Part shown: positions 7,946-27,443 of the stretch, piece after piece
Layout: the number at the start of each line of letters is the position of its first letter
How positions within the stretch are numbered: position 1 is the stretch's first letter
Source of the DNA: a virus
Length of the DNA stretch: 29,014 nt
Strand: one strand, 5' to 3'
IMG/VR virus record: IMGVR_UViG_3300002350_000002
Span: 78,717-107,730 of that record
Notes under the pieces: model-generated
Database searches by the model: none
What the model saw: only the letters and a program-made list of their open reading frames with translations
Told to the model about the DNA's origin: nothing
Position numbers and translations under genes: made by a program

Positions 7946-7958
7946 TTTGTGACCCGCC
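7943..7958 (-). promoter_or_regulatory. RBS deciding the hub-gene start
   Basis: On the minus strand GGCGGG (7958-7953) lies seven bases before ATG 7945-7943. The spacing is good, although the motif is not a perfect Shine-Dalgarno sequence. This start leaves a 26-base gap after the preceding stop, while the TTG at 7999 would overlap that gene by 28 bases. Confidence 0.55.
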
Positions 7959-7971
7959 AATAAAATTGTTT

Positions 7972-10507: not shown

Positions 10508-11512
10508 TTATACCTCGTCTACTTTTATGTACATGTCCATATCGGCAAAGTGGTTTGTGTAAAAACTAAGCCCATGTATATATAAATACAGTTTATTGTC
10601 TGCTCCTACTACAACATTTGGAATGCTTAAATTAACAGAAGAATTTAAATTGTCGTGCCCTTTTTGAAATAAGTCCACATAATTATTTAAGGATGCTTTA
10701 CCTTCTGTAAATAAATTCATAATATTTGCATAATGTTCATTATCTCTAGATACAAACAAGTCTATTTGCCCATTATTTGGCAGATAACCCTGAGATGTTC
10801 CAGTTCCTTCTATGTAAAGTGTTTTCTCTATGGTTTTTCCCAAAATGTCATTAAACAATGTTAGATTTAAATAATTTTCAATATTTTTCTTAATTGTTAA
10901 AGATTGTGTATACAAGCTCATACCACTAGAAAGATCACCTATTAATGGAACTTCCATATATAAATTTAGACTTTGCTGTTCAGAGCTTCTAACAAAAAGA
11001 TTCATTCCTCTATAAAATATTCTTACTGCCTCATCGCCTTGCATATAAAGGTTTGTTTTGCCATTGAAAGCTATTCTTTTTGGTCCACTAATATAAAGAG
11101 GCAACATTTTTTGCGGATCTTGTTTTAAAAACAATTGCATTTTGTCATCAACTATGCATTTTACAAACATAGTTAAATTTGATTGCATGTTTGAAATTAT
11201 AAATAATGGCATTGAATTTTCTGGAAATGATTTAGTGAACAACCTTCTGATTCTTGTGCTTCTTCCAGCACCTTCTATGAACAATGTTGATGTATTTGAA
11301 TAAGCACCTCTAACATATAGATTTTTTAAAGAAGTATTTTTAGCATTTGATTTAACAAACAAACTTAATGCAGAGATAGGGTTTGACTTTAAAAACATCG
11401 TCATGGTTTTAATATAATCTTTATTTCCATGAGTAAATAAGCTTACATTATTTTCTTCTGCGTTTTTAATAAACAATGAAACATTTGGTATTCCAACATT
11501 TATTGAGTCCAA
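10508..11512 (-). repeat. Array of about 23 degenerate LFIxG repeats
   Basis: The C-terminal half of the LamG-like protein is a run of short units, each with a hydrophobic-aromatic-hydrophobic core (SLFIKN, SLFTHG, TMFLKS, SLFVKS, NLYVRG, TLFIEG, PLFIIS, TMFVKC, QLFLKQ, PLYISG, NLYMQG, NLFVRS, NLYMEV and others). Unit length varies from about 12 to 19 residues. The core alternation suggests one strand per unit, as in a beta-solenoid or fibre shaft. Confidence 0.75.
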
Positions 11513-12487
11513 AAAATAAATTAGTGAAAAGCTGTCACTTATGGCAGGAGTTATACATGGGTTTGTAAACCTTAAAGTAAAATCTCCACCTGGATATATT
11601 TTTAAATTTGAAAATGTTGCTATACCATCTACGGCTTGAACCATAGTTGTACCAACAAATGTTCCTGTTCCAGTATATATTTCTGCTGTAACTCGTAAAT
11701 TAGAAGAAGTTACTACTTGATTGTAAGCATCTCTAACCTCTATGACTGTAGCACCTAAAGCAACATTGGTGTAAGTGCCTGTTGGTTGAGTAGTTATGAC
11801 TAATTGTGTTTCAGTAGTTATCTCATTACAGTAGATAGTTTGTATTTGTGCTATTTCTGTAGAATCAATTGCTTCGTCATATATTCTTAAATCATCTAAT
11901 TGATAGCCACTAGAGGTGTTGGTTATAAAAAATAAATTTGTATTATCAACTATTCTCTCTGTGCTAAACGGTATTGAATAATCTAATGTGTCTGGACTTG
12001 GTGTTGTGCCATCAAAAAAAAGATCTTGTTGTGTTCCATTTAAGGCTAAAGATAATGGTTCAGTTGGGCCTTTATAAACAATTATTATGTTTGTAAACTG
12101 TTGATTAAAATCATTAGCACCTAATTTTATTAAAGCTACTCCAGAATCAAAACCATTATTAAATCCAACACTTAAACTATTTGTTGATGTTTTTATTGAA
12201 ATGTAAAATCTTGTATCTCCACCACCGTATATCTGAAATATAATGTCTTCTTCAACACTTTTTACCCAAAAAGATATTGTCCAAGGAGCATCTACAGTTG
12301 ATGGTAATGGGTTTGATTGTGTAAACACACCACTAGTTAATGGGCCATGATAGCCATCTTGAAAGTTTAAACATTTTTGAACTAGCCCATCAACAAATGT
12401 GACAAGACCTCTAGTATTAGAAAAATCTAAGTTTCCTATACTATCATTCAAGTCGCCATTGAATTTCCACTGATGCGTTAATGGCAT
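10508..12487 (-). CDS. LamG-like/Ig-like tail protein with about 23 short 'LFIxG' repeats
   Basis: A 659-residue protein with three regions. Residues 1-215 look like a LamG/concanavalin-like lectin domain (MPLTHQWKFNGDLNDSIGN at the start, APWTISFWVKS, then LDDLRIYDEAIDSTEIAQI at the end). Residues about 220-325 look like an Ig-like domain (TQLVITTQPTGTYTNVALGA, then DGIATFSNLKIYPGG). From about 326 to the end runs a series of 12-19-residue repeats with a (L/M)-(F/Y)-(I/V/L/T)-x-G/S core, such as NVSLFIKN, TSTLFIEG, KTNLYMQG and MNLFTEG. The lectin-like part suggests glycan binding, and the repeats a stalk or solenoid. Its position just after the tape measure suggests a tail-tip or side-fibre component. 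It starts at ATG 12487, one base past the tape measure stop, with GAGGG upstream. Confidence 0.75.
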   Translation of the reverse strand: MPLTHQWKFNGDLNDSIGNLDFSNTRGLVTFVDGLVQKCLNFQDGYHGPLTSGVFTQSNPLPSTVDAPWTISFWVKSVEEDIIFQIYGGGDTRFYISIKTSTNSLSVGFNNGFDSGVALIKLGANDFNQQFTNIIIVYKGPTEPLSLALNGTQQDLFFDGTTPSPDTLDYSIPFSTERIVDNTNLFFITNTSSGYQLDDLRIYDEAIDSTEIAQIQTIYCNEITTETQLVITTQPTGTYTNVALGATVIEVRDAYNQVVTSSNLRVTAEIYTGTGTFVGTTMVQAVDGIATFSNLKIYPGGDFTLRFTNPCITPAISDSFSLIYFLDSINVGIPNVSLFIKNAEENNVSLFTHGNKDYIKTMTMFLKSNPISALSLFVKSNAKNTSLKNLYVRGAYSNTSTLFIEGAGRSTRIRRLFTKSFPENSMPLFIISNMQSNLTMFVKCIVDDKMQLFLKQDPQKMLPLYISGPKRIAFNGKTNLYMQGDEAVRIFYRGMNLFVRSSEQQSLNLYMEVPLIGDLSSGMSLYTQSLTIKKNIENYLNLTLFNDILGKTIEKTLYIEGTGTSQGYLPNNGQIDLFVSRDNEHYANIMNLFTEGKASLNNYVDLFQKGHDNLNSSVNLSIPNVVVGADNKLYLYIHGLSFYTNHFADMDMYIKVDEV

Positions 12488-12488
12488 T

Positions 12489-15400
12489 TTATGCCCTCAT
12501 TTGATCATTATTGTTGTCTTCAATTGCTGAACGAATCATTCCTGCAACATTAGTTGTTATACCAGACAATGATTGTTGTATTGCTGCTAGTACGCTTGGG
12601 GTATTAAAGCTTACATTCAATGATAATGGTGCAATAGCCAAGTTTATTGTTTTTGGTACACGATCTAGTGCAGATGCTAGATTGTTGACTGCTCTTTCAA
12701 AAGCAAGACTACTAGAGTACATTGCTGATGATGAGCTATTCATTAGTGATCCAACTTTATCAATTAATGACATTGATGATGTTATTGTACCAGCAGCTTG
12801 TCCAAAAGATGTTCCTAATTGTATTACAGCCGAACTCACAAGTCCTGCTACACCTTGTAAATTTTCGGATGCAGATTGAAGTATTTTAAAATCAACACCT
12901 AAAATTGGTCCACTTCCAGAATTAGAACTACCAGTTCCATTTTGATAATAACCAACTTTTCCACCTTTAGCATAATTGTTTACTCTATCTAAAAATGCAG
13001 TTCCAACTCTATCTACTGCTGGTTTACTTACAACAAACTCTCCTGGTGTTAACATAGCTGGTTGAGTATCAGTGGTTGAGCCACCGTTGGCAAAAAATCT
13101 TCTTGGCTGATTATAGTGCGACATTCTTGCATTTTTAATAGTATCTAAAGCTGTAGCTGCTGCCACATCTGTATTGTTTACCGATAGGTTTCCTAAACCT
13201 TTAGTTTGTATTGAAGATATTGCCTGTTGAGCTATGCCCACATTACTTCCTGGAGTATCAGCAAGGCTTCCCATTGCTAATGCTTTGTTAGCACTAACGC
13301 CTTGGAATGTTTGATTTCCAGCCTTACTAAAACCAAGTTCATTCATATAGTCTTTAAGACTTACTTTATCAGCGGGTGGTCCACCAATTAATCCAGATAT
13401 GTATCTGCTTCCAACATCGGACATTTGATAACCACCAATTGGCCCTCTGGAAATTTCTCTATTGTTAAGAATATCTTCGAAAGCCCAATCTTCGAGTGCG
13501 AATTTTGTAACACCAGCCATTTTTGGTGAGCCATATCGAGAATCAGATAACGCATTTAGTCCACCAAGATAATCAGGAATTGCATTTCTACCGCTAAAAG
13601 AAGTAGAACCATAGCCATCACCACCAAATTCTTTTGAGTGTTTTGGTCCATAGAAACTATTGTAAGTGTATCTTCCATATCCTGGCTTGTTTAAAAATCC
13701 TGATCTATCTGCTGCATAATTAGCCAAATTATTAAGAGTGTTTGCGTTACTTCTAGGGTTAAAGTTTTTAGAGGCTAAATAACCCTGTGCCCCTATATCA
13801 AAGTCTGTCCTTTGTCTTCCACGAGAGTTAATGTATCCTCTGCCTGGAGATTGTCCAGAAAGCCTAGCATAGTATGGGTTTATAGCTTGAAGATCACCAC
13901 CACGATATAAGTACTTTACCGCCCCACCACTGTTAAGATTTTGCAAGAGAGGGAGATTAGCAGCAGTTGCCCTAGCATTAACTACATACTCACCAGGAGA
14001 TAGTATTGCTGGTACAGTATCACTGCCCTTTGCGACAAAGAAGGATGGGTCAGGGTTTGGAGCACTGCTTGGAACAATACCGCCAGAGGCCATAGCTATT
14101 GGTTGATCTAAATTATTTTCTTTAGCACCAATCCAATTGTATTTTATACTCTTGTTTTTTTCAAAATAGTCATATATGTTTTTTGAAACCACTTCTTCTT
14201 TCTCTGGAATATTTAAATCTTTTTTTATTTTATCTTTATCATATTTAAAGAAGTCCTCTTTGGTTTGTACATTTCCATCATTAGAACTATATTGCAATGC
14301 ATCAAATTTTGTGTTGAATAAATTGTTGTTGAAGAATGGAACTATTGCAGTAAGTTTTTTACCAAAGTCTTTGCTAAATTGTTCTAATATTAAAGCATTT
14401 TCTTTTTGTCTTTTTTCAATTTCAATATTTTGATATTGTGGCAATAGGCCAGCATATTTTATTTCTTCCACACCATAATTTCTATCTTTATAATATTTTT
14501 TCTGATTTATATTTTTCATTAATTTAACATAATTTAGCAAATCTGTTTTTGTTGCATCTTCCTCATAAGACCCATTAAATAATTCGTTTTCAATATTTTT
14601 TTGTAAATTTTTTCTTTTTTCCTTATCTGTATCTATTTTTCTTGGTTCTGCTCCCTCTAATCCGTCAACTGTATAAGTTGGTTCCATTAAATTAGAAACT
14701 TCTTTATATGTTTGATTTATATAGTCATCAAGTCTTCTTCTTTGAATTGGTAATACATAAAGTCCACCTTTTTGTTTTTTTAGTTTTTCACTTGCACTTA
14801 ATATTGTTTGACCTTCTAAGTTTTCAAGATTTGCAGTAGTTTTTATATTTTGAGCCAACTGTTCTAGCTTTAAATTTTTTCTAAAAACATCATAATTTGT
14901 ATTTAAATCTTTTATAGAATATTCTTGATCATCTGGCATCTTAACACCAAGTGATTTTGCTATTTCTACTATTTTTTGTTCATTTTGATCGTCAAACAAT
15001 ATTTTTGGTCCAAGCTCTTCAATATTTAATATGTTTTTATCTTGTTTAAACAATCTTCCAAATATTGCACTTTTATCATAGTCGTTTATTTTTTCAACAT
15101 CACCTTTTCCAAGTTTTTTCAAAATGAAATCTGTGGCTGCATTTTTTGATTCATATTTTTCTCTGATTTTATTAAGTTGTCCTTCACTTGCCCCACTTTT
15201 TTGCAAAGGAGTTATTTCTGAGATAAACGACTCTGGCATTCCTCTCTCGCCTTTGCCTTTGTCATCTTTTAACTTTTCAAAAAGTATTGCATCTTCTATT
15301 GATGTATAGGGGTTTTCATTAAGATATCTTTGATTTTTTAAATCTCCATATCTCCTATCCGTTACTATTCCATAAGATTCAATTTCATCAGAAAAGTTGT

Positions 15401-18400
15401 TGAAAAACAAAGATGGGTTTTCTTTGAGTAATTTTGTGTATAATGTATCATCCTTGTCATCAAAAAAAGCAGCATTGTCGGAACCCATACCTCTAGCATC
15501 AAACCTTGGTTGTAAATACTTTCTTAGTGTTTTAGCCTCATCGTTTTTTCTTAGTTTTAAATTTCTAGCATATGTATCTCTTAAAAATTTATAAGAAGCA
15601 ATTAAAAATCCGGCTGCACCACCAAGTAATGTGCCACCAGGAATAGGAATAGCACTTCCAGCAAGTGCTCCAGCAGCTATTGTTCCAAGATAAGAAGCTC
15701 CTTGTCCAGCAAGTGTTGTATCAGCATCGCTTTCTCCAAGTATTAAACTTGAACTTTCATATTTTTTCTTGTCGTATAGATTTGCAATTTCTGGAAAAAC
15801 TGTTCCATAATTTTCAACAACAGATTTAATTTGACCTTGATTTTTGTTAGTGGTCAGAGCCGTTCCTATTTTTTCTAAGTCAGTAGCTGTTTGAGGCAGA
15901 AATGCTAATCCTAAAGGTCCAGCAAATGGAGCTACTTTTGGTATTCTTGTAAGACCTTCAAACAGAGGTATAAGTGCTGCTGAAGTTAATGCTTCTGCAC
16001 CCAACTTTTTCTTAATTTCACTTGGATCAACACCATTCATATAATCAACAATTGATGTTTTAACGAGTGGCAATGCTATTTGTGCATAAGTGCCATATTT
16101 TTGTATTGTTTTTCCACCATCGATCATATTGAATTTTGAACTATTGCCAATTATAGTTTTAGAGTTATTGTTTGCTCTAATTAGTTGATTGTTTGTTTCC
16201 ACAAAACTTGCTTTATTTTTTTCTCTTACTCGTTGGACAGCTTTCATTATTTCATTAATTTTTCTACCTTTTGCAATATCTGGAAATTGATTTTGTACTT
16301 GAGCCATTTCACTTGGAGTGACACCGTTTTTTTCTAAAATTTGTCTAACAGTTTTTGGTGCTTCAACAGGTGCATTGTTTTTTGCTGCTGGTTCTGCTTT
16401 AGCTGCTTCAGTTGCTTTTGCTGTTTCAGCTTTTGCTGCTGCTTCTGCTGCTATTTGTTCTGGTGTTGGTGGTAGTGGTCCAACTAATTCTGATGGTGGT
16501 ACTTTGCTTGGTTGAACACCAGTTCTTCCCTCTGTTGTTGTTGGAACAACTGTTCCTTTTCCTGCATCATTTAGATTTGGTTTATTGCCTGTTGTTACAT
16601 CAACTTTTGGTGGTACTTTGCTTGGTTCAGTTTTATTTGTTATATCTGTTTTTACTGGATCTGGTTTTAAACCATATATCTCTTTTGGAATTTCTTTAGG
16701 AATGCCAAGATTTTTTTCGGCTTTTACTTCATCTGGTTTTATATTAAATACATCCCGAACTTTTTTTTCCACTTTCACTTGAACTTTTCCAGCTTTTACT
16801 TCACCATCTGGTTTTATTCCAATTACATTTTTATTTTTTGCTGCGTTTTGTCTTTCTATTTCTTTATTAGCATTTTCTATTCTTTTTCTTGCACCTTCTG
16901 CTCTTTTAAAACCTTCTACTTCTTGTAAAGCTATATTTTCTAATCTAATGACCTCTCTTGCTTGAGCAAGCGATATTGCTCTTTGTTGTTCTGCACTTTT
17001 TATGTTTCGAAAAATGGCTGCTCTTTTAGCATATTCTATTTTTTTAGCTTGAATTTGTTCTACTGATAATCCTTCTGTTCTAAAATTAGCAGTGGCAGCA
17101 TTTTCTCTTGCGTTGTAAATCTGATTTGCTAAAAGATAAGGGTTTCTGGATTGAATTTCCGCTATTACATTACCAGGAATTGGTGTTTCTCTAGTTAATT
17201 TAAGAGGTTTAAGCCCATTTTTAGAAATTAATTTTCTTTCACCATATCTAGCATCCAATTCATTTTGTAAAAACTTGTTGGCATCTGCCTTATACTTTTC
17301 TTTTGAAAGTTGTAACTCATTAGGTTTACCCTCTGTAGATTTTTGTGAAGCAGTAACCATTCTTGTTTTTATGTCATTGGCAATATCCAATGCAATTTTT
17401 TTAGTTATTGGTTGTGCAATAGGACTTTCTAAAAATCTTGAGGTTTTTTTAAGTGTGGCTTTTATTATGTTTTCTGGAACTTTTTTACTCTTTAAAAATT
17501 CGTAAATATTATTATTGGTACTATTTTTAATTGGTTTTTCTATTACAACTGGTTTTGCTTCGTTTGTTTTTGGTTTTGGTATTTCTGAATCTAATGGTGC
17601 TGTTAACTGATCTGCCTCATACATAGTTACAAATCTGTTTTGATCAAGCGGACTTAATTTTTTAAATTCATTTACAAAATCTTGCTTGTTTGCAGCAATA
17701 TTATTATTTGTTTTATCGTTTACAATTCTATTAAATCTTTCTGTTTGTGCTTGTTCTCTATATTTTTTAGGAAGATTTTTATTTTCATATATTTTTTTAA
17801 GGTCGCTTAAATTTAAATCTTTTATTTGTTTCATTGAAACATTTTTATTTCGTTCAAAATTAGAAAGATCATTAATTACTTTTTCAACTTTAATAGGATT
17901 ATTTGATGTTTCTGAAACAACTGGATTTGTTGAAACTTCTGAAGTTGGTTTTCCTGCTCTTTCATCCAATATTTTTTGTAAAACAGCCCTCATTTGTGGA
18001 GTGGTATCTGGACTTTTTATACTAGCTTCTATTTGATTGGTTGGAATATTTTTACCCCAATCTACTCCACCAGCTTTATTCATTGGTATTTCGTCTGATT
18101 TGCCAATACCAATACTTTTTATAATATTTGACTGAAGCTCACCACTGTTAAAATCGCCAACAATATTACCAATACCCTTGACAGTATTTACGCCAAACTT
18201 ACCAATACCTTTACCAAGACGACCAAAAAATCCAGCAAATGGTACATTTCTAGTAACTATACCTTTATTAGTTGTGTCTTTTATAAAAGACTCATATGTT
18301 TTTACTAAACTTTTTCCTTCTTCGGTATACTTTAAATTTTTAATCATTATCATTCTGTCGGCTGCACTTCCTTTCCTATATTTTTTTTGAGCATCTACAT

Positions 18401-21400
18401 CATCTGGAAATAAACCAGCTATTTTTTGATTAGTTCTATATCTTGATGCTAAAGCAACAGTACCAACAGCAGCAAAAGGAGAAGCAATATACCCTGCCAT
18501 AATAGCATTTTCCCAAAACTTTTCATTTGCTTGTATAGCTTTCAAATCGTTATCAGCTTTTATTTGTTCTTCTGTTGATTCATATCCTGGTATTACAATT
18601 GAATCACTATCTTTGGCTTTAATTGCTTCTTGTCCATATGATTTTCCAGTAGAACCAAATAAAGATGCTGCTGCAACTAATCCTGCACCTATAGATTTTT
18701 TAGGATTTAAAAGACCAGCACCAACAAATGCTTTTGCATTAATGTAGGACTTACCAGCTACTTCACTTATGGATGATGTTTTTTTACCTGCTCTTGTCAA
18801 AAATTCTTTAAAAAGTTCTGCCTCTTTACCTTTACCAGCCCCTGATAAAAGACCATCTATTGGAATCTGACCTTTATTTCCTTGTAAATCTTTAAGGGCT
18901 TGTGCATGAAATCCTAATGCATCTTTACCTAAAATTGGGTTAGCACCATAAGCATTGGCTGCTTTTTGATTAGATAAAAAACTTATCATTCTTTTTAATG
19001 AAGCTGCTGGACTTTTTTCTTCAACAATTCTAGCGTGTGTTTCAGCAACTGTTCTTGTTGGTTTAAACAAGTTCTCAAGCGTGTCTAATCCAAGAGATCC
19101 AAATATTGAATTTTTAAGCTTGGCTCCAGGTTTTTCAGCAGCATATGTAAGAGCATGACCACCAAATTCATGCCTAGTGGTTTTTCGTGACGATTGGGGC
19201 TGGACTGGTCCAGCTTCACCTCGTATTAAAGTTACTGCTGTGTCTCTTTTTATATTGTAAAACCCTCTTGTGCTCTCAAGTTGTTCTGGATTTTTTTCTA
19301 ATGTAGGCAGAATATCTTGAAACATCTGCATTTTTTTCATAACTCTTCTATCTGGTCCAACATCTTCTGCTGGTTTACTTAAAATTCTTGAAAATTGATT
19401 AGCTATTCGTTCTCCAAGGTAGTGTCTTGCTCTTTCTAAAAGATATTCAGTGCCCCTTGTTGCTACGCCAGTTGTGTTAAGTGGGTCCATCCTTTTAATT
19501 TTAAGATTACCTGGACCACTATCATTATTCCTAAAAGTTTGTAATATGTTTTGAACACCTGGTTTAGATGAATTTCTCATAAACTCATCTGCTTCACTCA
19601 TACCTCCCAAGCTTAAATAACTAACCTTACCCCCGCCATTCATATGATCTAAAAGACCCTTATTCTTTTTAGCTTTATCTGCACCAACAATAAATTCTCC
19701 AGATTGAACCATAGCTGGAGTTTTACGACCAGCTTGACCGCCCTTAGAAAAACCTAACACTGGAAAATTTTCATCCGCAAGATCAAATCCAAATGTATCA
19801 CTAAATTTTTTATTTTCTCCAAACTGTACTGGAGCACCATATACTAATAAGCCTTGAAAAAATGGGTCTAATTTTGCCCTTCTTCTATAATATTCTTTGC
19901 TATTTCCTTGTGCATCTTTTGCTGTTACATCAAAAACACTTTGATTAGCATTAATATTAGTGTTTTTTTGTTGTTGTGTTAAATCACCACGAATGTACTT
20001 GTCTGTAATTCCAGTAATCCACTGATAATGAACTGGTTTAATATTTAATGGCATTCCAAATATAGCTTTTTTATTTAAAGCTTCTTTTTGTTGCGGATTT
20101 AAATTATTTGTTTTTAACCCTGCGGTTGTTATATCTTTAATTGGAGTCCAAGGTTCATCAAACGCAGGAGAAACTATTGCACTTGCAATAAACTGTCCAC
20201 CCTGATAAGGAATATTCGTAAGATTACTATCTCCAGCTTGTATTCTCAAAGAGTTATTTAAAGCATTTCTTCTCCAAGAACCTCTAAGGTTTCCAAATTT
20301 TTGTAATATAGCAAGATCAACCCTTCTTTGTCTTTCATCATCTATAATTCTTTTTAATTCAACTGCATTAACAGCAACACCAGCACCAGCAGGACCACCA
20401 ACAAAAGCACCGCCAGCCAAATATTTAACAGCACCGCCATCATTCATTGCTTTTGTAGGTTTAACTGTTCCACCGCCATTTAAGGCTTGTAGCAAAGGAA
20501 GATTTTCAGATGTTGCTTTTGCGTTAACCACATATTCGCCATCATTCAACATAGCTGGTATTGTATCTGGACCTATTGGCTTAAATACTTTTGGATCTGC
20601 ACCAACTATCGCAGAAGAATGGGTTACCATACCGCCAGTGCTTAATCTCGCTGGTGCAAATGGTATACCTTGTGGTCTAACAAGATTGTTTTGTGCAACT
20701 GGTGGATTTGCCACTTGTGGTGGTGCAATAGCATTTACATTTTGAGCATTTGGTACTGGAGGTTTTGGTTTTCCTAAAGCTGCTATTTGAATATTTAATG
20801 CTGCTATTTGTGTTGTTGCTGCTGTTGTTTGTGCTTCAAGAATACCCATTTGAGCAGTAAATTGTGTGCCAATAACATTGCCAAGCCTTTTTACATCTTC
20901 AGTAGCTTGTGTAAAAGCAGCACCAGTAACATTATTTTTAATTAAATCTGTTACAAAACCACCAACACCACCCTTAGTAGGATCTTGATCTTTAGCTATA
21001 TCTCTATTGCCTTTTTGATCAGTAGTAATTTTAAGACCTAATGATCCAGCTAAATTTCCTTGAACTTGTTCTTGTTCTGCTCGAAGAGTAGCAAGCCTCT
21101 TACCAATAGCAGCAGTTATTATTGATGCTAATTGTGTAGAATCTGTACCACCTTTATTAGCAGCTTGTATTTCTTCAGATAGTTTGCCTAAGTCAATATT
21201 GGCAGTTTGAACAGCTTTATTTTGAGCAAGTGCCGATGGTAACTTAGCAGCAAGATTACCGCCAGCCAAAGCGTTAATTGCTATAGCTGTACTATCTTTT
21301 CCAACCCCTGGTTGTAATTCTGCTATCTTTTTTCTTTCTTCTTCAGCAAGCAAGAAAGAAGTTATGTCTTTGGTTTTTGGCCTTATCTTATTGTTGTAAT

Positions 21401-24400
21401 AAGCTTGACCACCACCAACCTCTTTATTTTGTATAGCAAGTGCATCTAATGGATTAAATAATGCAACAGACTTTTCTGAAGCTTTCATATCTACTAATTT
21501 TGCATTGCTTTCTAATTGAATCTGCTGTTGTTGAGCCACTTGTGGCATTAACAATTGTTGCCCTAGTCTTGTAAAGAAAACTTCATTTTGTGCAGATAGT
21601 TTTGTAAAAAATTCTCCCTGCAAAGTTTGCTGATCTTTTATTATATTTATCTGTGCCTGTTCTCTTACCGCCATTACTGCAAGAAGCTGTTGATTTAATT
21701 GTGCTAATTGTGGACCAAACTTATCTTGCATTGCTGTTTCTGGTTTAGAAACAAAACCACTTGCTTGTAAAAATTGAGATTTTAATTTTTTGCCTTCATC
21801 TCCAGAAAAATCTAAATATTCAAAAATAGCTTTTCTTTGTTCAACATTAAACCTCAAAAGATTTCCACCAATTGATTTTGCTACATTTGCTAATTGACTT
21901 CCAGCTTGAAGCCTTTGCAATTGTTCTGGTGACGATGTTAATAATTTTTCACCTTTGTTTTCTGTTTCAGATTGTTTTCTTGCATTATCTTGTTCTTCTT
22001 TTGCTATTTCTTGTCTTATTTTTCCAACCCTTTGCTCAATCGCAGAAATCTCTTCGGTTGAATCAGCAAGATTTTTCATAGCTTGGTTAAGAAGAGAAGC
22101 CTCTACTTTTAATCTACCTAATTCATTTGTTGCTTCAACATAATCGCCCCTGCCTTCTGTAGCAGTTAATTTTGAATTGTTTTGTTTTGTTTGTGCCTGT
22201 TCTGTTCTGGCTCTATTTTGCTCTATTTTTGCTTGTATTTCATCTGGTGTCAATTGTTGACCATTTACATTAACGCCAGCTAATCTAGCCTGTTGTTCTC
22301 TAAATGCTTGAGTTTGATCTGCCACATTTGTCATATTCAAACCTATTACATTTTCATTCACATCAGAAAATGGTCTTGCTTTTTTTTGTCTTTTTACCTC
22401 ATCTTCAATAGCTATATTTGTCCTAATATTTCTTGTTTGCTGTTGAATTTTTGAAAGCTTATCAAATTCCTGCACAGTTGTAAGCGTTGCTTGAACTAAT
22501 TTATTTATTCCAGCAACATATGTGTCTGCTGCTTTTTCTAAGTTAACCGTTATGGTTTTAAAAGCATTTAAGAATGGATCAGAAACATTTGACATTAATT
22601 TTTTTGCAAGTTCATTATAATCGCCACCAGACTCTGAAAGCATTTTTGTAAAGTCTTCACCCATTTTTCCAACGACTGAATTTACATAGCTTTGTATTTG
22701 GGTTTCATCAAGACCACCAACACCTTTTAATTGTTGAGTCAAAGCACTACGCAATGCTGATTGTGGATCTTTACCACCACCCATATCATTTGGTCTTATA
22801 TTCGCAAGAATATTGGGGAGTATTGAAGACATTTCTGCCAATACTGTTCCAGAAGATTGTAGATTTTCTCCCGATGAACCAAGACCGCCAGTAATATTTT
22901 TTAAATTAGTCTTAAACCCAGTTGGGTCTATGGAAGGCAATTGAATTTCATTTGATATTTTTTGTTTTTGCGATACTGAAAAATTTGAAGATAGTGAATC
23001 AGTTATAGTTTGAAAAGCTGGTGTTAAATTGTTGAGCGTATTAGCAGCATTAGTTGAAGCATCAGCAATAAGAGAAAATGCTATACTTAATTTTTGTGCC
23101 CCCTCAATTGCTTGTGCTTGACTTTTAGCAGCATTTTGTTGTTTCTCAAAATCTTTTGCAAATGTTTCAAGCTGTTTTTTAATCTTACTTATTGGTTGAT
23201 CTAAACCAATTGCCAATCTTGCAATCTGACTTATGTTTGCACTATCTTTAAAAAACCCTTCAATTTCATATGGTTTTCTTTTTCCCTGCTCATCTCTAAC
23301 AACAGGCGAACTTTTTATATCCTCTTGAAGTTGTTTTGACAAAAGGGCATTTATACCACCAGCTTGTGCAGCATATTGATTTCTTCTTTCTACAGCAGTA
23401 TTTGTTGCTTCTTGACTTGCATAACTTTTTCTACTAAAAAAGGTAGTAGAAGCTGCACTTTTTGTTGAAATTTCGTCATCAATTTTTGATTGAAGGGTTG
23501 TAATTTCATTAAGATTTTCTTGTGATATTTTTCCAAATGATGCAGCAGCAACTTCAAAAGCATTTTTCAACTTATTGCCAGCTTCTTCTAATTTTATGCT
23601 TGAGATTTGTTTTTTAGCATCAGTTAAACCTGATACTATACCAGTAAATCCACCAATCAATGCACCAACAGCCATACCAAAAGGACCAGCAAAACTTCCA
23701 ATCGCCAATCCAGTAGCAGCACCTGTTAAACCACCAGAAATTCCAGCACCAGCCTTTACTATGCTTTCACCTTCTGCTCCACCAGCAACAGCCTTTTTAT
23801 AATCTTCTGCTTGTGGACCTACTGCTGAAGCTATAAGACCAATACCGCTACTAACAGCAAAAGAACTATTTTGAAGACCTTCTTTTGAAACAAGACCTTT
23901 TCCAAAATCAGTAACTTTTCTGAGTATTTTCTTTTGACCTGTTTCTGTATAACCTTGTGTTTTTAACCTATTGGCCAAAACTGGATCATAAAATTCGCCC
24001 TTAGATGAAACTTCAAACTTTCTTCTTCCAGCAACGGTTTCCCTAGCCATTTGTTGAGCTTGCTTATTTGCAAACTTTTCATCAAATTCTAAACCTTTTG
24101 CTTCAGAAAAAGATTTTATTTGATTAAAATAACCAGCCTTCAATCTTTGAGCAGTATTTTCTCTAATTTCTTTACGAGTGCCACCAGTTGCTTCTTCGCC
24201 ATAAAGTTTTTTATAATTAGAAAGTTCTTTCCTTATTTCTTTTTTATAAGCATCGCCATAAGTTGATGTTATTACTTTTCCATCTTTTGTAATATTTCCA
24301 TCTGGATTATCTTTATATTTGTTCTTTAATGCATTAATTTCTGATCCTGTTTTTTCCAGATCTTTTTGTGCCTGATCAACGAATGCTTTATTTCTAGCAG

Positions 24401-27400
24401 CACTTTGATTTACTTGTTTTAAATTGTTTACACTTTGACCAACATTTTTTTGTGCTTCTGCTGTTGTTGAAGCAGCAGCATCAATACTTGCTTGCTTATT
24501 AGCTGCTAAGTTTTCATAGTTTGTTTTAACTCTTGTTGCAGCTTGTATCTTTTTATCAATTGCTTTTTCTTCTCTACTTCCAACAGCAACACCTCTTTTT
24601 TGAGTTTCAAGACCTCTAATTTCTTGCTCTTTAGCTTTAGCGTTTGATATGTGTCTAGCTTGAATATCTCTTTCTTCTTGTTCTTTTGCTTTAACATCTT
24701 TTAATATTCCCTTTCTTTCTTCCATTGTTTTTAGAATTTCTGCTCTTGCAGCATTTATGTTTTCCTCATTTTTTTGACCTTGAGCAACCTTATTAGCTTG
24801 CTGTTTATAAATAGGTTCAAGTGCTTTTACTTGTTTAGTTGTATTGGTAACATCTTCTGCAACAGCTATTGCTTCTTGTCTGTTCTGTCTTTTTTCTGCT
24901 TTATTTGTTGGTATCCTAAGTTGTCCTTCAACCTGTTTTGCAATTTTTATTTCTTCTTTTGTTAAACTGCCATAACCACCCCTAGCAAATTTCTTTCTGC
25001 CAGTCGTATTCATATGGTCTAAGTTAGGAACTCCAATTTTCTTTGTTTCATCTGGAGTATAAATGTATTCTCCTGGCATAACCAACGATGGAATAACCCC
25101 ACCACTAGCCCTTCCAAGTCGAGATAAGTTTGAAGCACCTATGCTATTAACTGAAGATTTTTTAATTACATAAGAACCAATTGGCAAATCTAATGGAACA
25201 CTATCAGTGTTACCAACGCCTGGAACTAAACCTCCAAGAGCTAATTTTTTTTCAAATGATTCGTATACTGATAAATTAGATAAATTAATTGAATCATCTC
25301 TTTGATTTTTATAAGAACTTTTTGGATTTATATTAGCAAGTTTTCCCTCATATAATAATGCCTTGGCTATAATTTCTATGTCTGGAACTTGATTTTTCGT
25401 TACCTTTGTTTCAATTAACTTATCGTCACCTATAAAATCCATTCCTTGTTGATTTGGAAGTTTTACATAATTAGATGTTTGTGGATTTCTTCTTAATTTT
25501 TTAGCAGTATCGGCTTCGCCTAAAGCTCCAGCAATTTGATTGTATTGACTTTGACTACCTTCTCCGATTTTAACCTTAAAATAATTTTCCCCAAGTTGAC
25601 CTAAAAAATTATCTCTTCCACCCACAACCTTTCTTCCAAAAGCTTTTGTAACAGCAGAATTAGCTTTTTCAACAGCTTTTTGTGGAGTTGATTTAGGATT
25701 AGCCATTTCATTTTCATAAACATTTTTTCCAGCGTTTAACATTCTTTCCGAATCTTTTCTATATTTATCATATTTGCCTAATTTATTTCTTTTTATTTGT
25801 CCAATAAATTTATACGCATCTAATTCTGGATCATATAAATCATTTAATGATGTTTTACCAGTTTCTTTAATAACATCTAATACTTTTCCACCCATATCAA
25901 AACGATTTCTTGGAATAACCAACTCACCAGGTTCTAACAATGCAGGAACCTTATCTCCCCTACCAACTCCTGGTACAATTCCACCCTTTGCCATTTTAAT
26001 TATTCCACCAGAAGCTTTTCTTCCCCCAGTTGGCAAAAATGGAGAAAAAGTACTTGGTTGACTTGCTGGTGCAGGAGCAAAAGCCGTACTAGCAAAACCC
26101 TTTGTAAAACTAGTTAAACTTTGAACCGTCTTCACTGCTGCAATAGCAGTTATAACTGGCAAAATTCCTTTTAAAGAATCAGCAAGTGCAATACCAGCAG
26201 AAGCAGCACCAAGAAGTAAATCTATGAGCGATCTAAACGAAGATGTATTGGTAAGATTTCTAATAAAATCTGCAAATTCTTCTTTAACCTTTTGTATTTT
26301 TACGCCAAAAGCCTCTTGTGCTTGTGCAGCATTTAGAGCAAGAGAAGCACCACCTATTTGGGCGATACCTAAAGCTTTCTGTGCGACACCAAATTCTTGA
26401 ATAAGTGGTATAACCTTGGAGATCTGCCTATATCCACCAAGTTCTTCGATAATGGCACTAAACCTTGGATCAGTAGATCTAAGCTCATTAAGAGCACCAG
26501 AAAGCCTTTTAACAGCCTCATATGGTCCAACAAATTGATTTGCAAGACCCAAATCGCCAGCAGCCCTAGCTTCGTCTGCCGTATATCTTAGCTGTACGCC
26601 AATATCCTTAAGTGCTTCAACAGTTTCATTACGCTGTACCCTAGTAAATATAGTTCTAAGGCCAGTACCAATACTTTCTGCACTTTCTCTAGTTGTTTGC
26701 CTAATTGATGTGAATAATGCTAAAAATTCATTTAAGTCACCGCCAGCAGATTTAAAAGCACCACCAGCTTTACGAACACCTTCAATTAAGTCTTGAGCTT
26801 CAACAGCAAATTCAGCAGCAACAGCATTGATTGCACCGAGAGCATTACCCAAGTCTTTTGCACTTATGCCAAACTGATTCATAACCGCAATAGCACCTTC
26901 GGTAGTATCTCTCAGGTTGTCAAAGCTTGGGGCTAATGCAGCTTGAGCCAATGCTTCAAGTGCAACCTTAGTGTCTGCTAAACTTAAGTTAGCTTGTTTT
27001 AATGTCACTGCCGTTGTAAGCAGGTCTTTGCTGGAAACGCCATAATTCTTTGACAGTCTACTTACTTCATTACCTACAGCACCAACTTGTCCAACACTGT
27101 CTGTAGAAACCTGAGTCAATCTAACCATTTCACGATCAAACTCTACAGCAGCAGTTAATGCTTGCTTTAGAGAAGATGTAAAAGTGATAATAGCTCCAGC
27201 AGTAAGTGTAAAAGCAACAAATCTTTTAGCAGCTAAACCTGACTGTCTACCAAACTGTTCCATAGCAGTACTAGCTTCTGCTGCTTGCACTTTAATATAT
27301 CTTAAATTATCTGCATCATTTTTTGGTATACCCAAAGATACTGCACCAACATCTTTCAATTGACTATTGATAGTGTTAGCAGCATTTTTTAAAGATGCCG

Positions 27401-27443
27401 TATTTAATGCTACACTCAACTGTGCCGTTAAATTAAAAGCCAT
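12489..27443 (-). CDS. Giant modular tape measure protein (4,984 residues)
   Basis: Tail tape measure protein: it sets tail length, is packed inside the tail tube and is released at infection. Residues 1-440 carry the family hallmarks (a hydrophobic FVAFTLTAGAIITFTSSL near 73-90, then a PhageMin_Tail-like helical region with EFDREMVRLTQVSTDSVGQV and FGISAKDLGNALGAINAVA). Beyond that the protein is modular. Seven D-x-V-P-A-x-L-x-P-G-E-(Y/F)-V-V cassettes punctuate a nuclease-like domain (about 560-740), a long coiled coil (about 815-1090), a glycine-zipper hydrophobic stretch (about 1191-1272), more coiled coil (to about 2200), an unknown globular part (about 2384-2567), a zincin-like part (about 2620-2830), hydrophobic segments (about 2914-3004, 3815-3848 and 3915-3958), an Ala/Pro/Lys-rich hinge (about 3524-3698), a charged region (to about 4450) and an unknown C-terminal globular part (about 4520-4780). 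It starts at ATG 27443 behind GGGGTG. It is among the longer tape measures known to the author. Confidence 0.92.
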   Translation of the reverse strand: MAFNLTAQLSVALNTASLKNAANTINSQLKDVGAVSLGIPKNDADNLRYIKVQAAEASTAMEQFGRQSGLAAKRFVAFTLTAGAIITFTSSLKQALTAAVEFDREMVRLTQVSTDSVGQVGAVGNEVSRLSKNYGVSSKDLLTTAVTLKQANLSLADTKVALEALAQAALAPSFDNLRDTTEGAIAVMNQFGISAKDLGNALGAINAVAAEFAVEAQDLIEGVRKAGGAFKSAGGDLNEFLALFTSIRQTTRESAESIGTGLRTIFTRVQRNETVEALKDIGVQLRYTADEARAAGDLGLANQFVGPYEAVKRLSGALNELRSTDPRFSAIIEELGGYRQISKVIPLIQEFGVAQKALGIAQIGGASLALNAAQAQEAFGVKIQKVKEEFADFIRNLTNTSSFRSLIDLLLGAASAGIALADSLKGILPVITAIAAVKTVQSLTSFTKGFASTAFAPAPASQPSTFSPFLPTGGRKASGGIIKMAKGGIVPGVGRGDKVPALLEPGELVIPRNRFDMGGKVLDVIKETGKTSLNDLYDPELDAYKFIGQIKRNKLGKYDKYRKDSERMLNAGKNVYENEMANPKSTPQKAVEKANSAVTKAFGRKVVGGRDNFLGQLGENYFKVKIGEGSQSQYNQIAGALGEADTAKKLRRNPQTSNYVKLPNQQGMDFIGDDKLIETKVTKNQVPDIEIIAKALLYEGKLANINPKSSYKNQRDDSINLSNLSVYESFEKKLALGGLVPGVGNTDSVPLDLPIGSYVIKKSSVNSIGASNLSRLGRASGGVIPSLVMPGEYIYTPDETKKIGVPNLDHMNTTGRKKFARGGYGSLTKEEIKIAKQVEGQLRIPTNKAEKRQNRQEAIAVAEDVTNTTKQVKALEPIYKQQANKVAQGQKNEENINAARAEILKTMEERKGILKDVKAKEQEERDIQARHISNAKAKEQEIRGLETQKRGVAVGSREEKAIDKKIQAATRVKTNYENLAANKQASIDAAASTTAEAQKNVGQSVNNLKQVNQSAARNKAFVDQAQKDLEKTGSEINALKNKYKDNPDGNITKDGKVITSTYGDAYKKEIRKELSNYKKLYGEEATGGTRKEIRENTAQRLKAGYFNQIKSFSEAKGLEFDEKFANKQAQQMARETVAGRRKFEVSSKGEFYDPVLANRLKTQGYTETGQKKILRKVTDFGKGLVSKEGLQNSSFAVSSGIGLIASAVGPQAEDYKKAVAGGAEGESIVKAGAGISGGLTGAATGLAIGSFAGPFGMAVGALIGGFTGIVSGLTDAKKQISSIKLEEAGNKLKNAFEVAAASFGKISQENLNEITTLQSKIDDEISTKSAASTTFFSRKSYASQEATNTAVERRNQYAAQAGGINALLSKQLQEDIKSSPVVRDEQGKRKPYEIEGFFKDSANISQIARLAIGLDQPISKIKKQLETFAKDFEKQQNAAKSQAQAIEGAQKLSIAFSLIADASTNAANTLNNLTPAFQTITDSLSSNFSVSQKQKISNEIQLPSIDPTGFKTNLKNITGGLGSSGENLQSSGTVLAEMSSILPNILANIRPNDMGGGKDPQSALRSALTQQLKGVGGLDETQIQSYVNSVVGKMGEDFTKMLSESGGDYNELAKKLMSNVSDPFLNAFKTITVNLEKAADTYVAGINKLVQATLTTVQEFDKLSKIQQQTRNIRTNIAIEDEVKRQKKARPFSDVNENVIGLNMTNVADQTQAFREQQARLAGVNVNGQQLTPDEIQAKIEQNRARTEQAQTKQNNSKLTATEGRGDYVEATNELGRLKVEASLLNQAMKNLADSTEEISAIEQRVGKIRQEIAKEEQDNARKQSETENKGEKLLTSSPEQLQRLQAGSQLANVAKSIGGNLLRFNVEQRKAIFEYLDFSGDEGKKLKSQFLQASGFVSKPETAMQDKFGPQLAQLNQQLLAVMAVREQAQINIIKDQQTLQGEFFTKLSAQNEVFFTRLGQQLLMPQVAQQQQIQLESNAKLVDMKASEKSVALFNPLDALAIQNKEVGGGQAYYNNKIRPKTKDITSFLLAEEERKKIAELQPGVGKDSTAIAINALAGGNLAAKLPSALAQNKAVQTANIDLGKLSEEIQAANKGGTDSTQLASIITAAIGKRLATLRAEQEQVQGNLAGSLGLKITTDQKGNRDIAKDQDPTKGGVGGFVTDLIKNNVTGAAFTQATEDVKRLGNVIGTQFTAQMGILEAQTTAATTQIAALNIQIAALGKPKPPVPNAQNVNAIAPPQVANPPVAQNNLVRPQGIPFAPARLSTGGMVTHSSAIVGADPKVFKPIGPDTIPAMLNDGEYVVNAKATSENLPLLQALNGGGTVKPTKAMNDGGAVKYLAGGAFVGGPAGAGVAVNAVELKRIIDDERQRRVDLAILQKFGNLRGSWRRNALNNSLRIQAGDSNLTNIPYQGGQFIASAIVSPAFDEPWTPIKDITTAGLKTNNLNPQQKEALNKKAIFGMPLNIKPVHYQWITGITDKYIRGDLTQQQKNTNINANQSVFDVTAKDAQGNSKEYYRRRAKLDPFFQGLLVYGAPVQFGENKKFSDTFGFDLADENFPVLGFSKGGQAGRKTPAMVQSGEFIVGADKAKKNKGLLDHMNGGGKVSYLSLGGMSEADEFMRNSSKPGVQNILQTFRNNDSGPGNLKIKRMDPLNTTGVATRGTEYLLERARHYLGERIANQFSRILSKPAEDVGPDRRVMKKMQMFQDILPTLEKNPEQLESTRGFYNIKRDTAVTLIRGEAGPVQPQSSRKTTRHEFGGHALTYAAEKPGAKLKNSIFGSLGLDTLENLFKPTRTVAETHARIVEEKSPAASLKRMISFLSNQKAANAYGANPILGKDALGFHAQALKDLQGNKGQIPIDGLLSGAGKGKEAELFKEFLTRAGKKTSSISEVAGKSYINAKAFVGAGLLNPKKSIGAGLVAAASLFGSTGKSYGQEAIKAKDSDSIVIPGYESTEEQIKADNDLKAIQANEKFWENAIMAGYIASPFAAVGTVALASRYRTNQKIAGLFPDDVDAQKKYRKGSAADRMIMIKNLKYTEEGKSLVKTYESFIKDTTNKGIVTRNVPFAGFFGRLGKGIGKFGVNTVKGIGNIVGDFNSGELQSNIIKSIGIGKSDEIPMNKAGGVDWGKNIPTNQIEASIKSPDTTPQMRAVLQKILDERAGKPTSEVSTNPVVSETSNNPIKVEKVINDLSNFERNKNVSMKQIKDLNLSDLKKIYENKNLPKKYREQAQTERFNRIVNDKTNNNIAANKQDFVNEFKKLSPLDQNRFVTMYEADQLTAPLDSEIPKPKTNEAKPVVIEKPIKNSTNNNIYEFLKSKKVPENIIKATLKKTSRFLESPIAQPITKKIALDIANDIKTRMVTASQKSTEGKPNELQLSKEKYKADANKFLQNELDARYGERKLISKNGLKPLKLTRETPIPGNVIAEIQSRNPYLLANQIYNARENAATANFRTEGLSVEQIQAKKIEYAKRAAIFRNIKSAEQQRAISLAQAREVIRLENIALQEVEGFKRAEGARKRIENANKEIERQNAAKNKNVIGIKPDGEVKAGKVQVKVEKKVRDVFNIKPDEVKAEKNLGIPKEIPKEIYGLKPDPVKTDITNKTEPSKVPPKVDVTTGNKPNLNDAGKGTVVPTTTEGRTGVQPSKVPPSELVGPLPPTPEQIAAEAAAKAETAKATEAAKAEPAAKNNAPVEAPKTVRQILEKNGVTPSEMAQVQNQFPDIAKGRKINEIMKAVQRVREKNKASFVETNNQLIRANNNSKTIIGNSSKFNMIDGGKTIQKYGTYAQIALPLVKTSIVDYMNGVDPSEIKKKLGAEALTSAALIPLFEGLTRIPKVAPFAGPLGLAFLPQTATDLEKIGTALTTNKNQGQIKSVVENYGTVFPEIANLYDKKKYESSSLILGESDADTTLAGQGASYLGTIAAGALAGSAIPIPGGTLLGGAAGFLIASYKFLRDTYARNLKLRKNDEAKTLRKYLQPRFDARGMGSDNAAFFDDKDDTLYTKLLKENPSLFFNNFSDEIESYGIVTDRRYGDLKNQRYLNENPYTSIEDAILFEKLKDDKGKGERGMPESFISEITPLQKSGASEGQLNKIREKYESKNAATDFILKKLGKGDVEKINDYDKSAIFGRLFKQDKNILNIEELGPKILFDDQNEQKIVEIAKSLGVKMPDDQEYSIKDLNTNYDVFRKNLKLEQLAQNIKTTANLENLEGQTILSASEKLKKQKGGLYVLPIQRRRLDDYINQTYKEVSNLMEPTYTVDGLEGAEPRKIDTDKEKRKNLQKNIENELFNGSYEEDATKTDLLNYVKLMKNINQKKYYKDRNYGVEEIKYAGLLPQYQNIEIEKRQKENALILEQFSKDFGKKLTAIVPFFNNNLFNTKFDALQYSSNDGNVQTKEDFFKYDKDKIKKDLNIPEKEEVVSKNIYDYFEKNKSIKYNWIGAKENNLDQPIAMASGGIVPSSAPNPDPSFFVAKGSDTVPAILSPGEYVVNARATAANLPLLQNLNSGGAVKYLYRGGDLQAINPYYARLSGQSPGRGYINSRGRQRTDFDIGAQGYLASKNFNPRSNANTLNNLANYAADRSGFLNKPGYGRYTYNSFYGPKHSKEFGGDGYGSTSFSGRNAIPDYLGGLNALSDSRYGSPKMAGVTKFALEDWAFEDILNNREISRGPIGGYQMSDVGSRYISGLIGGPPADKVSLKDYMNELGFSKAGNQTFQGVSANKALAMGSLADTPGSNVGIAQQAISSIQTKGLGNLSVNNTDVAAATALDTIKNARMSHYNQPRRFFANGGSTTDTQPAMLTPGEFVVSKPAVDRVGTAFLDRVNNYAKGGKVGYYQNGTGSSNSGSGPILGVDFKILQSASENLQGVAGLVSSAVIQLGTSFGQAAGTITSSMSLIDKVGSLMNSSSSAMYSSSLAFERAVNNLASALDRVPKTINLAIAPLSLNVSFNTPSVLAAIQQSLSGITTNVAGMIRSAIEDNNNDQMRA
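12940..13105 (-). repeat. Tape measure PGE cassette 7
   Basis: Encodes FANGGSTTDTQPAMLTPGEF, then VVSKPAVDRVGTAFLDRVN and AKGG, at about residues 4779-4834. It is followed only by the final helical tail of about 150 residues. Confidence 0.75.
13895..14090 (-). repeat. Tape measure PGE cassette 6
   Basis: Encodes ASGGIVPSSAPNPDP, then GSDTVPAILSPGEYVVNARA and LPLLQNLNSGG, at about residues 4451-4516. It is the best-preserved copy and precedes the C-terminal globular part. Confidence 0.75.
18999..19226 (-). other. HEXXGH zinc-peptidase-like motif inside the tape measure
   Basis: Residues about 2740-2815. A beta-like stretch (DTAVTLIRGEA, just upstream) is followed by TTRHEFGGHALTYAAE, with H2758, E2759 and H2763. 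This fits HExxGH, the one-residue-longer variant of HExxH known from the dipeptidyl-peptidase III (M49) family. E2801 in VAETHARIVEE, 38 residues on, is a candidate third ligand. The context (edge strand, Thr-Thr, HE..GHAL helix) resembles zincins. A plain HExxH is absent, so a catalytically dead or coincidental motif remains possible. Confidence 0.4.
19610..19755 (-). repeat. Tape measure PGE cassette 5
   Basis: Encodes SKGGQAGRKTPAMVQSGEFI followed by VGADKAKKNKGLLDHMNGGG at about residues 2563-2611. It directly precedes the zincin-like part. The LLDHMN ending recalls cassette 3 (NLDHMN). Confidence 0.7.
20455..20645 (-). repeat. Tape measure PGE cassette 4
   Basis: Encodes STGGMV, then GPDTIPAMLNDGEYVVNAKA and LPLLQALNGGG, at about residues 2266-2330. 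It ends the coiled-coil region and is closest in wording to cassette 6 (both have EYVVNA(K/R)AT...NLPLLQ-x-LN-x-GG). Confidence 0.75.
24970..25110 (-). repeat. Tape measure PGE cassette 3
   Basis: Encodes ASGGVIPSLVMPGEYIYTPD, then IGVPNLDHMN and ARGG, at about residues 778-825. It precedes the first long coiled coil. The D-x-V-P portion is shortened relative to the other copies. Confidence 0.65.
25150..25240 (-). repeat. Tape measure PGE cassette 2 (diverged)
   Basis: Encodes LGGLVPGVGNTDSVPLDLPI followed by GSYVIKKSSV at about residues 736-765. The P-G-E is replaced by I-G-S, but the GG-x-V-P-G-x-G-x-x-D-x-V-P part is intact. Confidence 0.65.
25224..25766 (-). other. PD-(D/E)XK nuclease-like domain inside the tape measure
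   Basis: Residues about 560-740. A helix with E619 (GQLGENYFKVKIG) precedes a strand with D669 (QGMDFIG) and then LIETKV with E678 and K680, followed by a helix (IEIIAKALLYEG). The E...D-x(8)-E-x-K arrangement matches the active-site layout of the PD-(D/E)XK superfamily (restriction-endonuclease-like fold). The region is soluble-looking and unlike the coiled coils around it, and is bounded by cassettes 1 and 2. Activity is not proven: such motifs occur by chance, and the domain could be a structural relic. Confidence 0.5.
25899..25994 (-). repeat. Tape measure PGE cassette 1
   Basis: Encodes GGIVPGVGRGDKVPALLEPG followed by ELVIP at about residues 484-515. It ends the N-terminal tape-measure core and precedes the nuclease-like domain. 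Boundaries are approximate. Confidence 0.75.

Follow-up and report, generated by a model that had tools for sequence, protein, structure and literature searches.

We describe a giant siphovirus-type tape measure protein (TMP) that is divided into slots by seven conserved sequence cassettes, and whose modules have been replaced, and have moved between slots, among related phages. On balance, we lean towards a reading in which this TMP doubles as a cargo carrier, with modules, predicted enzymes among them, exchanged at the cassettes and delivered at infection. The protein that sets tail length would then probably also take a changing tool set into the bacterium.

Within the window (the whole stretch of DNA analyzed, 29,014 nucleotides), positions 12489-27443 of the minus strand form one open frame of 4984 aa. 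The sole Pfam match across this frame is PF10145 (PhageMin_Tail; aa 126-337, E=4e-24), its PHROG matches are tape measure families, and its N-terminal core is distantly related to SPbeta YomI. The homologous TMPs recovered in two IMG/VR scans, all on metagenome viral contigs, are 43-100% identical over this core, and 56 remained after removal of near-duplicates. Four are close relatives of the window protein (L015, L016, L017 and L037), with core identity of 84-100% per 50-aa block, compared with about 50-75% in the wider set. A cassette directly follows the core, at about aa 460-750, in all 56, and complete TMPs carry between two and seven cassettes. A search of genome contigs returned a single short contig, from a Chitinophagia MAG, and this is insufficient to assign a host. 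The features of the window protein are listed below, with each slot taking the number of the cassette that precedes it (slots 1, 3, 4, 5 and 6).

26010..27443, minus strand: N-terminal tape measure core, aa 1-478, with PF10145 at aa 126-337
25884..26009, minus strand: cassette 1, aa 479-520, KGGIVPGVGRGDKVPALLEPGELVIPR, by motif and HMM; DNA homology to L015, L016 and L017 ends here
25236..25883, minus strand: slot 1 module, aa 521-736, putative PD-(D/E)xK-nuclease-like; unrelated modules in L015, L016 and L017
25404..25517, minus strand: putative nuclease residues E643, D669 and E678-x-K680, kept in the window and L037
24978..25235, minus strand: cassettes 2 and 3, in tandem, aa 737-822, by motif and HMM; DNA homology to relatives restarts at the start of the pair
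23784..24977, minus strand: first part of slot 3, aa 823-1220, charged and helical or coiled-coil-like by composition
23619..23783, minus strand: glycine zipper or TM-like hairpin, aa 1221-1275, by composition; zipper at aa 1233-1273
20649..23618, minus strand: long coiled-coil-like tape region, aa 1276-2265, by composition; homologous in all close relatives
20409..20636, minus strand: cassette 4, aa 2270-2345, by motif and HMM
19743..20408, minus strand: slot 4 module, aa 2346-2567, globular-looking; two divergent versions among relatives
19605..19742, minus strand: cassette 5, aa 2568-2613, by motif and HMM
18729..19604, minus strand: zincin-like metallopeptidase module, aa 2614-2905, opening slot 5; by motif, conservation, an AF2 model (pLDDT 64) and slot-1 homologues in L039 and L041
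19155..19172, minus strand: HEFGGH (HEXXGH zinc motif), aa 2758-2763; third ligand E2801 at 19041-19043
14085..18728, minus strand: remainder of slot 5, aa 2906-4453, a helical mosaic, with a Pro-rich stretch and a second hydrophobic Gly-rich stretch, by alignment and composition
13899..14084, minus strand: cassette 6, aa 4454-4515, by motif and HMM; similar motif in 117 isolated-phage records
13086..13898, minus strand: slot 6 module, aa 4516-4786, Gly- and aromatic-rich, by alignment and composition
12939..13085, minus strand: cassette 7, aa 4787-4835, by motif and HMM
12492..12938, minus strand: C-terminal tail, aa 4836-4984, by alignment

A preliminary description of this DNA had counted seven GG…PGE-type cassettes in the tape measure, and this count is confirmed. 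A cassette HMM finds exactly seven, with starts at about aa 487, 737, 783, 2284, 2574, 4467 and 4784, and has no match in the reversed sequences of all 56 TMPs. With 0.0-0.0015 strict motifs expected per shuffle, the cassettes are far above chance. The consensus holds as a motif, but PGE is spelled out in only four cassettes, with IGS, DGE and SGE in its place in the other three. Only 11 aa separate cassettes 2 and 3, which lie in tandem, so the number of slots is five and not six. The cassette motif also occurs in isolated phages, including phages of Gordonia, Mycobacterium and Nodularia, and the five cultured-phage TMPs that were examined carry one or two cassettes each, mostly near the C terminus and bounding no slots; from this small sample, the multi-slot form looks characteristic of an environmental clade. 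A literature search for PGE-type strings returned nothing relevant. In L020, L021, L053 and L056, the cassette 1-type motif and slot 1 are both missing and the core joins the cassette 2/3 pair directly, as expected if cassette and module were lost together as one unit. A shorter junction motif, GG-x-(V/I)-Q-(K/R)-F-x-x-G, gives 135 matches in a looser form against 3.7 in shuffles, with 85 of these near a cassette. It is also found inside slots of the 56 TMPs (e.g. L087, L104 and L073), and may mark the borders of sub-modules.

Among the parts between cassettes, the preliminary description had recognized a glycine zipper, a zincin-like part and a nuclease-like part. The glycine zipper is present at aa 1233-1273, the zincin motif is present as HEXXGH rather than HEXXH, and the nuclease is plausible. 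Slots 4 and 6 of the window, like most other modules, have no recognizable function or domain.

The identification of the slot 5 module as a predicted metallopeptidase is well supported. A Glu lies 43 residues after the first His of its HEFGGH motif, and H2758, E2759, H2763 and E2801 are invariant in eight homologues, the seven others being 20-43% identical to the window's. Some of the eight have HEXXH and some HEXXXH, a variant described for the peptidases of polyvalent proteins (PMC5512222). Over all modules, HExxH-type motifs number 22 against 0.38 in shuffles. The AF2 model has three strands, the motif helix and the Glu helix in the order stated for zincins. A Foldseek search of the model against PDB and BFVD gave no structural match; a profile search of PDB with the zincin alignment gave nothing credible. 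A tblastn search found no such zincin in isolated phages, and a search of viral contigs for further zincin or nuclease homologues returned known relatives only.

For slot 1 of the window, a PD-(D/E)xK-type nuclease is moderately likely on the strength of its residues. It is rated no higher because the module is neither modelled (AF2 on a two-sequence alignment gave an uninformative pLDDT of 37) nor linked by profile to other families. Its candidate residues, E643, D669 and E678-x-K680, are kept in two sequences only, those of the window and L037. What makes the earlier nuclease-like label plausible, beyond the motif, is the presence of such signatures in the same slot of relatives: E–D–(D/E)xK is found in slot 1 of 31 of the 56 TMPs, against 9.7 in shuffled sequences and 11.6 in length-matched other segments, and in an alignment of 17 diverse modules from this slot in other phages, the invariant positions are G, E, D and K alone. 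Comparison by hhalign joined nuclease families N1 and N5 (98%), with the window's own N4 left unjoined, and profile searches of PDB with the nuclease alignments yielded nothing or chance matches.

Some slot-1 contents are without the nuclease signature (e.g. L039 and L019). The slot 1 module of L082 matches the ADP-ribosyltransferase (ART) family PF03496 above the Pfam cut-off and, with E=0.002, ADP-ribosyltransferases of solved structure. Other slot-1 modules have weak matches to DnaJ, ABC1-kinase and the polyvalent-associated LPD14. The 863-aa slot 1 of L024 (G011; aa 533-1395) contains a segment that looks GNAT-like by eye, an ABC1-kinase-like match (E=2e-4) and a zincin HEFVH. An SNase-like slot 1, proposed by motif for L038, L112 and L091, was rejected: the Pfam SNase match is weak and in another phage only (L094, E=0.0025), and phmmer against PDB was unsupportive for L038.

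It could be argued that the swapped modules are non-enzymatic spacers that tune tail length or fit to the host envelope, and that their motifs are decayed or coincidental. The fold and profile searches, which brought no confirmation, and the missing domain in most modules are compatible with spacers. This is nonetheless unlikely, given that homologues otherwise 20-40% identical have few invariant positions, which include the zinc ligands and catalytic-type residues, and given the ART found by Pfam, the weak DnaJ match and the enrichment of HExxH. Another alternative is that the metallopeptidase serves assembly, trimming the TMP in tail maturation while part of the chain stays, with nothing enzymatic injected. 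Cleavage of P1 DdrB before packaging, and the autoprocessing proposed for such peptidases (PMC5512222), provide a precedent, but the nuclease-, ART- and kinase-like modules of the same proteins are left unexplained, and many relatives, several of them incomplete, have no zincin motif. To us, a purely assembly-related role also has a low probability.

The proposal that modules are exchanged whole at cassette borders came with the suggestion that homologous TMPs be aligned to see where changes fall, and this alignment was run on the 56 TMPs. Relative to L015, L016, L017 and L037, the cassettes are islands that are mostly 80-98% identical, and identity in the stretches between them drops to about 20%. 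The slot 1 module exists in three unrelated versions, one in the window and L037, one in L015 and L017, and one in L016. At the DNA level, identity between the window and L016 is 94.3% until cassette 1 ends, with nt 1608 of the frame as its last base; similarity is then lost and restarts at nt 2253, cassette 2 starting seven bases later (2260). Nucleotide numbers in these comparisons are offset by 51, as the loci start 17 codons upstream of the ATG. The same stop at cassette 1 and restart at cassette 2 are seen between the window and L015 or L017, and likewise between L085 and L086, and in L039 and L041, which are 98-99% identical, DNA homology ends inside cassette 1. Across 35 pairs with N-cores at least 80% identical and flanks mostly 87-99% identical, among which same-cluster pairs are not independent, DNA similarity is lost within 60 nt of the cassette 1 end in 27 and within 30 nt in 25, and often restarts at cassette 2.

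Sharp breaks in protein identity show a related pattern: 112 of 362 lie no more than 30 aa from a cassette, compared with 36.7 ± 5.8 when the cassettes are shifted (none of 2000 shifts reaches 112). When one pair per cluster is used, 21-28 of 86-97 breaks are near cassettes, against 8.5-9.8 under shifts. Taken alone, this enrichment could have the conserved islands as its source. Stronger evidence for exchange comes from near-identical DNA around non-homologous modules, from discordant nearest relatives, and from the zincin in other slots. The nearest relative of the window protein is L037 at aa 520-735, L015 at about aa 823-1170, L016 or L037 at about aa 1170-2570, and L017 over most of about aa 3600-4450, a discordance that implies mosaicism. 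Much of the first part of slot 3 shares 94-98% identity with L015, and aa 873-1071 are only 15-62% identical to L016, L017 and L037; the C-terminal part of slot 5 is mostly nearest L017, with identity up to 96%. Slot 1 of both L039 and L041 contains homologues of the zincin module that the window has in slot 5 (E 1e-8 to 1e-34 against window-group modules). Whole-module exchange at cassette borders is therefore borne out by the DNA stops at cassette 1, the three-fold enrichment of breaks and the zincin in different slots, but it is not exclusive to the borders, as about 70% of sharp breaks are away from cassettes, including inside the slot 5 module.

These data also bear on a view that dispenses with exchange, in which the cassettes are purely structural joints (e.g. 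contacts with the tail tube or a chaperone) under purifying selection and the fillers have diverged by mutation. Such a view is in keeping with the one or two cassette-like motifs of ordinary-size cultured TMPs, mostly near the C terminus and bounding no slots, and TMPs are known for false mosaic signals (PMC10684548). However, flanks that are 87-99% identical in nucleotides adjoin modules of other length without detectable DNA similarity, and one module family occupies different slots. For slot 1, joints without exchange are largely refuted; for breaks inside slots 3 and 5 the explanation still stands, and as an account of the whole we consider it quite improbable. Assembly chimeras at cassettes common to co-occurring strains might be feared where the data are all metagenome contigs and the cassettes are conserved repeats, but they are highly improbable because about 17 arrangements of slot 1 are each seen in two or more contigs, the window's own at 100% nucleotide identity over 13 kb in another, independent contig, and because even distant phages have their nuclease-signature modules in one and the same slot.

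Tape measure proteins set tail length and leave the tail at infection. In the exchangeable cargo carrier that we favor, the PF10145 core, the long coiled coil and the glycine-zipper segment would be the fixed part, setting tail length and probably forming an inner-membrane channel, with the glycine zipper as candidate membrane segment. Recombination in or beside conserved cassette DNA would exchange cargo modules between related phages, and in this phage the modules would most likely include a PD-(D/E)xK-type nuclease in slot 1 and a zincin metallopeptidase in slot 5. By analogy with lambda, where TMP exit from the tail and action at the inner membrane have recent support (PMC13190303), the modules would leave the tail with the genome, cross the tube in an unfolded state and take up their fold once in the periplasm or cytoplasm. 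The peptidase may then release modules from the chain or cleave host proteins, and the nuclease may act on host or competitor DNA. More tentatively, and with considerable doubt on our part, TMPs of this clade could be a programmable injection platform, in which cassettes would serve both as recombination patches and, after ejection, as sites at which the protein's own metallopeptidase cuts modules free, and changing nucleases, peptidases, ADP-ribosyltransferases or kinases would be delivered at a stoichiometry fixed with the tail.

Several known systems share parts of this design. Polymorphic toxins combine a constant delivery part with C-terminal effector domains diversified by recombination; the window TMP resembles them in its constant delivery part and swapped putative effectors, and differs in that its slots are several, are internal and belong to a structural protein of the virion. 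Closest in concept are the polyvalent proteins of phages and conjugative elements, giant multidomain proteins that are thought to be injected; their commonest domain is a zincin metallopeptidase, ART, kinase and GNAT domains also occur, and cassette-like recombination has been suggested for the kinases (Iyer et al. 2017, PMC5512222). The likeness lies in a giant multidomain phage protein with zincin-, ART- and kinase-type contents, folds and injection being predicted here. In contrast to polyvalent proteins, the carrier here is the TMP itself, conserved motifs lie at the slot borders, and recent swaps are visible. Tape measure proteins are nowhere mentioned in the polyvalent-protein paper, and a connection between the two was not found in the accessible portions of the open-access literature searched.

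In the accessible part of PMC13277306, Sle1 of contractile injection systems is described as a TMP-like coiled coil with a variable domain that is loaded into a phage-tail device and ejected from it. Sle1 is like the window TMP in joining a coiled coil to variable, interchangeable functional domains and unlike it, within the same part of that source, in belonging to a bacterial particle, having a single C-terminal domain and showing no PGE cassettes. Mycobacteriophage TM4 gp17 has one cassette-like motif, and a peptidoglycan hydrolase motif has been described in it (Piuri & Hatfull 2006, as cited in the accessible part of PMC13277306). Wall-lytic TMPs such as TM4 gp17, SPbeta YomI and those of enterococcal phages share with the window protein an enzymatic domain inside the TMP, predicted in our case. 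Such TMPs presumably have one fixed lytic domain for wall penetration, in line with the annotations of YomI-type matches, and we know of none with an exchangeable series of slots or with a nuclease, zincin or ART.

A survey of phage mosaicism reported mosaic signals in TMPs and confirmed no genuine recent case (PMC10684548). In the present data, recent TMP swaps are visible to the nucleotide, and a recognizable motif marks their borders. This makes it testable whether tape measures deliver enzymes, how tail length holds when otherwise near-identical proteins gain or lose modules hundreds of residues long (e.g. L039 and L041), and whether the tail, instead of the head, can carry 'polyvalent' injected proteins.

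The record carrying the TMP gene is 111.6 kb and also encodes a phage-type DNA polymerase, a ribonucleotide reductase and a terminase/helicase-like ATPase. A PHROG search of the neighbors of the TMP gene was without matches, and one neighbor (10508-12487, minus strand) has a LamG-like domain (PF13385) followed by many short repeats with an (S/N)LF-type core, and is possibly involved in receptor or glycan binding. At 3146-7999 on the minus strand lies a 1617-aa protein, without match in Pfam and PHROG searches, whose C terminus consists of Cys-rich repeats linked by Thr/Pro (TTTTTPAP). In L027 (4691-9130; G000:C1 63490-67929), two ORFs cover consecutive parts of PHROG 405 and represent a split DNA polymerase. 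An Rfam search of the gap of about 900 bp between the halves was without match; a 212-aa ORF lies in it, and an intron or homing endonuclease insertion is possible.
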